This document shows positions 8,858 to 8,907 of a stretch of DNA of 64,000 nucleotides, in pieces. A program made the translations under genes and the position numbers. The first letter of the stretch is position 1, and the number at the start of each line of letters is the position of its first letter. The notes below the pieces were generated by a model that saw only the letters and a list, made by a program, of their open reading frames with translations, made no database searches and was not told where the DNA came from. Origin of the DNA: an uncultured Pelagibacteraceae bacterium (GTDB taxonomy: Bacteria > Pseudomonadota > Alphaproteobacteria > Pelagibacterales > AG-422-B15); contig CACHCK010000001.1 in NCBI GenBank assembly GCA_902578305.1, forward strand, positions 62,001 to 126,000, read 5' to 3'.

Positions 8858-8907
8858 GGTCAGTAATATGATTCAAAATAGAATCGAGGTCAATAATATT
8901 TAGAATC
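8858..8907. promoter_or_regulatory. Repeat-plus-GANTC array upstream of ccrM
   Basis: The 93-base gap between rnhB and ccrM holds two near-identical 12-mers, GGTCAGTAATAT (8858-8869) and GGTCAATAATAT (8888-8899), exactly 30 bases apart. It also holds three GANTC sites at 8870-8874, 8881-8885 and 8903-8907. The first two GANTC sites form an inverted pair with a 6-base spacer. GANTC would be expected about once per 330 bases at this composition. In Caulobacter the ccrM promoter carries GANTC sites that allow methylation-dependent control; the same role here is inference. Confidence 0.6.

Follow-up and report, generated by a model that had tools for sequence, protein, structure and literature searches.

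The stretch of DNA analysed here (the window, 64 kb in length) comes from a SAR11 genome of 1.24 Mb, the assembly of which is 94.6% complete. The window carries ccrM, and rnhB lies directly upstream of it in the same direction (Table 1). Against the NCBIfam CcrM equivalog model, the ccrM ORF scored 613 bits over positions 12-360, below the curated cut-off of 830.

Table 1. Features at and around the ccrM promoter, in window coordinates.
Feature	Position	Strand	Remarks
ccrM (GANTC adenine methyltransferase)	7760-8857	-	365 aa; ATG at 8857-8855; leaderless start predicted
Opposite-strand promoter (hypothesis)	8844-8872	+	TCGACC-N17-TATGAT; overlaps the ccrM promoter
CGGTC	8846-8850	-	ccrM codons 3-4
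Predicted transcription start	8857-8858	-	on the A of ATG or the base preceding it; deduced from where the -10 lies
12-mer copy over the -10 and initiation region	8858-8869	+	GGTCAGTAATAT; repeat judged chance
-10 hexamer CATATT	8865-8870	-	17-bp spacer to TTGACC; its C at -12 doubles as the final base of the proximal GANTC
Proximal GANTC	8870-8874		GATTC (GAATC on the coding strand); overlaps the -10 edge; in 34/34 family sequences
Middle GANTC	8881-8885		GAATC (GATTC on the coding strand); lies 2 bp past the -35, at an 11-bp distance to the proximal GANTC
-35 hexamer TTGACC	8888-8893	-	TTGAC invariant in aligned family sequences
12-mer copy containing the -35	8888-8899	+	GGTCAATAATAT; repeat judged chance
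Distal GANTC	8903-8907		GAATC (GATTC or GAGTC on the coding strand); upstream of the -35; in 34/34 family sequences
rnhB (ribonuclease HII)	8927-9541	-	co-directional, upstream of ccrM; stop bounds the promoter gap

The ccrM promoter and its GANTC sites

On the coding strand, the gap between the two genes reads GATTC-taaatattaTTGACC-tc-GATTC-tatttt-GAATC-ATATTACTGACC-ATG. Its layout consists of TTGACC (-35), N2, GANTC, N6 and a further GANTC that merges into CATATT (-10). The two hexamers have a spacing suited to sigma70 (TTGACC-17-CATATT), and conserved GANTC sites lie between or overlap them. The start codon of ccrM follows 7 nt after the -10, which predicts a leaderless mRNA. Judged by its sequence, the region is a sigma70 core promoter of ccrM that carries target sites of CcrM. 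The presence of three GANTC within 38 bp, two of them an inverted pair with starts 11 bp apart, had been described in the initial annotation and was confirmed. No other GANTC triplet within 40 bp was found in the window. Dinucleotide shuffles of the window hold a mean of 0.67 GANTC triplets within 38 bp, and the real expectation is lower because GANTC is depleted in the window (137 observed vs 216 expected from the shuffles).

Other known arrangements were searched for at the same promoter. The extended motif YGAKTCG has been reported for Caulobacter promoters activated by GcrA (PMC7987155). It has no full match at the three GANTC sites, the best being 6/7 at each, with T or A instead of G as the last base. 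YGAKTCG is a Caulobacter preference, and the ccrM promoter is thus claimed to work like GcrA/CcrM-responsive promoters and not to be a member of that class. The CtrA box TTAA-N7-TTAA was not found upstream of ccrM, where only TTAA-N9-TTAA is present. Nor does a GANTC lie in a leader, as in feedback of the Caulobacter type; all three sites precede the predicted start, and the mRNA is predicted to have no leader.

Two 12-mers, identical at 11 of 12 positions and 30 bp apart, are laid over the same promoter, as had been noticed previously, and were suggested to be the site of an unnamed regulator. On the coding strand, copy 1 (ATATTATTGACC) contains the -35 TTGACC and is conserved in relatives, only because that hexamer lies inside it. 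Copy 2 (ATATTACTGACC) is the -10 plus the start region; its TGACC part is kept by the closest clade alone and is replaced elsewhere in the family by, for example, ATATTACCCGCT or ATATTATTTTTC. A non-overlapping pair of this type (at most one mismatch) was found in 6.5% of the real 141-bp windows of the 64-kb window and in 6% of shuffles of the 141-bp region, or 0.8% if the 70-bp gap alone is considered. Genome-wide, the 12-mer with at most one mismatch occurs 30 times, vs 33 for the reversed control, and was rejected as a genome-wide regulator site. The near-identity of the copies and their 30-bp distance are what speaks for a regulator; the chance-level frequency of such pairs, the lack of genome-wide enrichment and the restriction of copy 2 to the closest clade make one hardly credible. 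The repeat looks like chance. The initial annotation had made its proposal depend on conservation in close relatives, and by that rule the repeat half of it falls, with copy 2 lost outside the closest clade.

Conservation in SAR11 and across Alphaproteobacteria

The layout was followed in an alignment of 34 distinct ccrM-upstream sequences from the family of the host, which share the pattern TTGACC-N2/3-GANTC-N5/6-GANTC-AT. The proximal and distal GANTC are present throughout. The middle GANTC is found in 27 of the 34 and is absent from genus g2 and two other sequences. In nearly all members of the family, the start codon (ATG or GTG) lies 6-8 nt past the -10. In Pelagibacteraceae the pair is shifted by 1 bp (offsets 9 and 20) and the -10 is less clear. 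When SAR11 is taken as a whole, the pair is in register in 48/78 sequences. The full pair can be dispensed with, since the middle site is gone from genus g2 of SAR11 and most GANTC are gone from g8 and g5. The promoters of g8 (L163, L164, L170) and g5 (L067, L068) have kept TTGAC and the -10 region, and offer a natural comparison set. As a separate observation, one ccrM copy (G013:C6:7293-8388) has kept the promoter while its match contains seven in-frame stops, which could be decay or an assembly error.

The arrangement recurs far outside SAR11. Both GANTC are in register in 40/89 ccrM upstream regions from other alphaproteobacterial genomes, and one site is in register in 25 more; this sample was made up of the best-matching loci for the query, together with small genomes, and is neither random nor corrected for relatedness. 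The 40 pair-bearing genomes belong to 21 families outside the SAR11 order. Among named ccrM loci, 19/74 carry both sites, including records of Reyranella, Azospirillum, Micavibrio, Sneathiella, Kordiimonas and Novosphingobium. The controls for these counts gave 0-0.01 in shuffles and 0 pairs in the reverse complement. The distance from TTGAC to the proximal GANTC is precise, with an offset of 19 in 47/89 class loci and counts of 0-2 at neighbouring offsets. The middle GANTC lies at offset 8-10 class-wide, and a GANTC of the distal type recurs at -14 to -16. Leaderless-looking ccrM genes were counted in 15/59 non-SAR11 pair loci; examples with the ATG 6-7 nt past the -10 are L226, L240, L210, L142, L118, L121 and L102.

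A strict twin-GANTC pattern was then sought in 193 whole genomes, where it has 33 matches vs 1 in the control. Same-strand ccrM lies directly downstream in 25 of the 30 strict loci examined and, by coordinates, in G486 (26/33). The signature is nearly private to ccrM in the sequences searched. Four of the five examined loci without ccrM are away from gene starts, and the fifth precedes an ftsK-like gene. In the latter (L276, G509:C4:133577), the pattern lies 62 bp before the predicted start, and the ftsK-like gene is a possible second target. In the host genome, the single arrangement TTGAC-N13..15-GANTC is not enriched (20 vs 22 in the control), so no wider regulon is visible there. A single GANTC at the -10 distance was accordingly not retained as the mark of a general regulon in the host. 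The other loose pair matches in the host genome were also set aside, 3/4 of them being inside ORFs.

The composition of the strict matches indicates what kind of element they form. Although the search pattern did not demand them, A(-11) and T(-7) are found in all 34 strict rows of the class-wide set (100%), which marks the element as a sigma70 promoter. CcrM recognition within such a promoter would leave the middle base of the first GANTC unconstrained, and it is indeed free (0.09 bit). The flanks of the sites are biased too (TTGACG-GC-GANTC, TGACTCA), and this bias would suit a different explanation, in which the GANTC words are incidental parts of a favoured spacer sequence or of an operator that works independently of methylation. 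Such an origin is very improbable in view of the free middle base, the recurrence of the sites at fixed offsets whether the genome is GC-rich or, as in SAR11, AT-rich, and the fact that the promoter belongs to the very gene whose product recognises exactly GANTC.

Models of methylation-responsive control

The regulators available in the host were surveyed by profile searches. A gcrA gene was detected with Pfam PF07750 (128 bits, cut-off 26.9), and among NCBIfam families GcrA alone was matched, at 127 bits against a curated cut-off of 280. The genome encodes both GcrA and CcrM. For CtrA, the best model scores in the host were 90-112 bits vs a cut-off of 350, and a search at 1e-55 turned up no CtrA in the host genome or in the other SAR11 genomes drawn. 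The three OmpR-type regulators of the host are PhoB and two others, none of them CtrA. The absence of ctrA in Pelagibacter has likewise been reported (PMC2877005). With no detectable CtrA, the usual activation of ccrM by CtrA is apparently unavailable in the host.

The initial annotation had proposed an autoregulatory switch that reads methylation by CcrM itself. Apart from the 12-mer, which had been made part of it, this idea finds partial support: the GANTC sites are conserved in near and far relatives, precisely placed in the ccrM promoter and in a layout suited to methylation sensing. The region is probably the core promoter of ccrM with GANTC sites of its own, at which methylation is read through GcrA and coupled to the passage of the replication fork. 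Methylation of the three sites by CcrM, binding of GcrA and the direction of the feedback are all inferred. CcrM would methylate the GANTC sites inside its own promoter, and GcrA, which binds methylated GANTC adjacent to -35/-10 elements and works with the sigma70 polymerase, would read their methylation state. The proximal GANTC supplies a non-consensus C at -12, and GcrA would compensate for the weak -10; the proximal and middle sites stand about one helical turn (11 bp) apart. Hemimethylation after fork passage would permit ccrM to fire and full remethylation would shut the promoter down, a sign of the loop that is most likely by analogy with Caulobacter ctrA P1. The predicted outcome is one pulse of ccrM per replication round, with no need for CtrA.

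Several published observations bear on these steps. In SAR11, GANTC sites are methylated across the genome: both cultured Pelagibacter and a Pelagibacter MAG were shown to have them largely methylated (PMC9516812). GcrA binds methylated GANTC and associates with RNA polymerase (PMC3667746). At ctrA P1, its footprint extends from -35 to -10 on fully methylated DNA, and with a hemimethylated probe it shrinks to some 12 nt at the -35/GANTC (PMC3667746). Caulobacter transcription starts include a cell-cycle cluster characterised by a GANTC located between the -35 and the -10 (PMC4287350).

The same promoter could also work by positive feedback, in which GcrA is drawn to the methylated sites and ccrM transcription rises as a result. 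CcrM would in this way maintain its own expression, and fork passage would lower it until remethylation. The preference of GcrA for methylated DNA and its association with RNA polymerase (PMC3667746) fit this scheme, as does the activation of ftsZ and mipZ by CcrM methylation in Caulobacter (PMC3708114); the C at -12 weakens the -10 and makes an activator plausible. Positive feedback is nevertheless rather unlikely, given that a methylation-less cell could not easily restart and that the precedents among GANTC promoters (ctrA P1 and the gcrA promoter of A. tumefaciens) fall with full methylation.

GcrA might instead be dispensable, with m6A at the edges of the -35 and -10 hindering the sigma70 polymerase directly and giving simple negative feedback on the CcrM level. 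The GANTC sites do lie exactly at the hexamer edges, and the pair is present also in genomes without detected GcrA. GcrA (PF07750) was, however, detected in 35/40 pair-bearing class genomes, and the known methylation effects in the class have mostly been attributed to GcrA, which renders a direct block improbable. The five pair-bearing genomes in which PF07750 was not detected (G387, G491, G555, G413 and G431) would have either a divergent GcrA or another reader. The presence of GcrA was also tried as a predictor of the pair and rejected, because 8/89 class genomes lack a GcrA match and 5/8 of these carry the pair, so that there is no association.

The favoured model, reading of methylation through GcrA at the promoter of the methylase, can be set beside known systems. 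Caulobacter ccrM is the same gene, with GANTC sites near the start. Its promoter was reportedly described by Stephens et al. in 1995, who are said to have proposed a methylation effect. The GANTC sites of Caulobacter ccrM lie in the transcribed leader. The gene is activated by CtrA (PMC3667746), whereas in the host no CtrA was detected, and ccrM carries its sites inside the core promoter and is predicted to be leaderless. The GcrA/CcrM-controlled P1 of Caulobacter ctrA is likewise a sigma70 promoter in front of a cell-cycle master gene, with a GANTC adjoining its -35 (PMC3667746). That gene is ctrA and one GANTC has been reported there; the promoter in the host drives the methylase gene itself and combines a pair of sites, 11 bp apart and with the second merged into the -10, with a third above the -35. 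The GcrA/CcrM promoters of ftsN, mipZ, ftsZ and podJ (P2) also have GANTC at or near the core promoter and methylation-dependent activity, but mostly a single site, and their targets are division or polarity genes instead of the methylase. The gcrA promoter of Agrobacterium tumefaciens is a GANTC-rich promoter of the partner regulator that is repressed by methylation (PMC11514494); it belongs to a different gene and has six GANTC in 250 bp upstream, in contrast to the fixed twin-site core at ccrM. GANTC sites have been counted upstream of cell-cycle genes, and no conclusion on control was drawn (Brilli et al., 2010; PMC2877005). No description of the twin-GANTC core promoter of ccrM was found in the open-access literature searched.

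Evolution of the promoter and a possible overlapping element

The same layout before ccrM across much of Alphaproteobacteria points to an old self-sensing switch. It is possible, if slightly doubtful, that a self-sensing and replication-coupled ccrM promoter is ancestral to much of the class, and that Caulobacterales and Rhizobiales later replaced it with control of ccrM by CtrA. The presence of a CtrA box was inverse to that of correctly placed GANTC (p=0.001 for the named loci, p=0.02 for the class loci), in a comparison that used a crude 1-mismatch motif, uninformative in AT-rich SAR11, and was uncorrected for phylogeny. As the conserved twin-GANTC promoter suggests, it may be the model species, with ccrM driven by CtrA, that show the derived state. 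If the model is true, GcrA and CcrM would form a self-contained, replication-coupled switch in SAR11, which lacks CtrA. The twin-GANTC promoter would then be a concrete and testable answer to how CcrM is timed without CtrA, including in the very abundant SAR11. Its occurrences also form a natural collection of paired-site promoters, on which the reading of fully methylated, hemimethylated and unmethylated DNA by GcrA can be studied.

A further element may overlap the start of ccrM. Codons 3-4 ([TA]CG GTC) are constrained at the nucleotide level in the family: GTC makes up 9/170 Val codons (about 5%) in ten genes of the window, and nearly all family members use it in codon 4 of ccrM. In one sequence (L033), CGGTC is retained even though the upstream triplet, GTA, is no start. 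On the opposite strand, these codons read as the -35 of T[TCG]GACC-N16/17-TATGAT, the -10 of which overlaps the proximal GANTC; similar spacing is seen in 31/34 family sequences. An antisense or bidirectional promoter over the ccrM start is possible.
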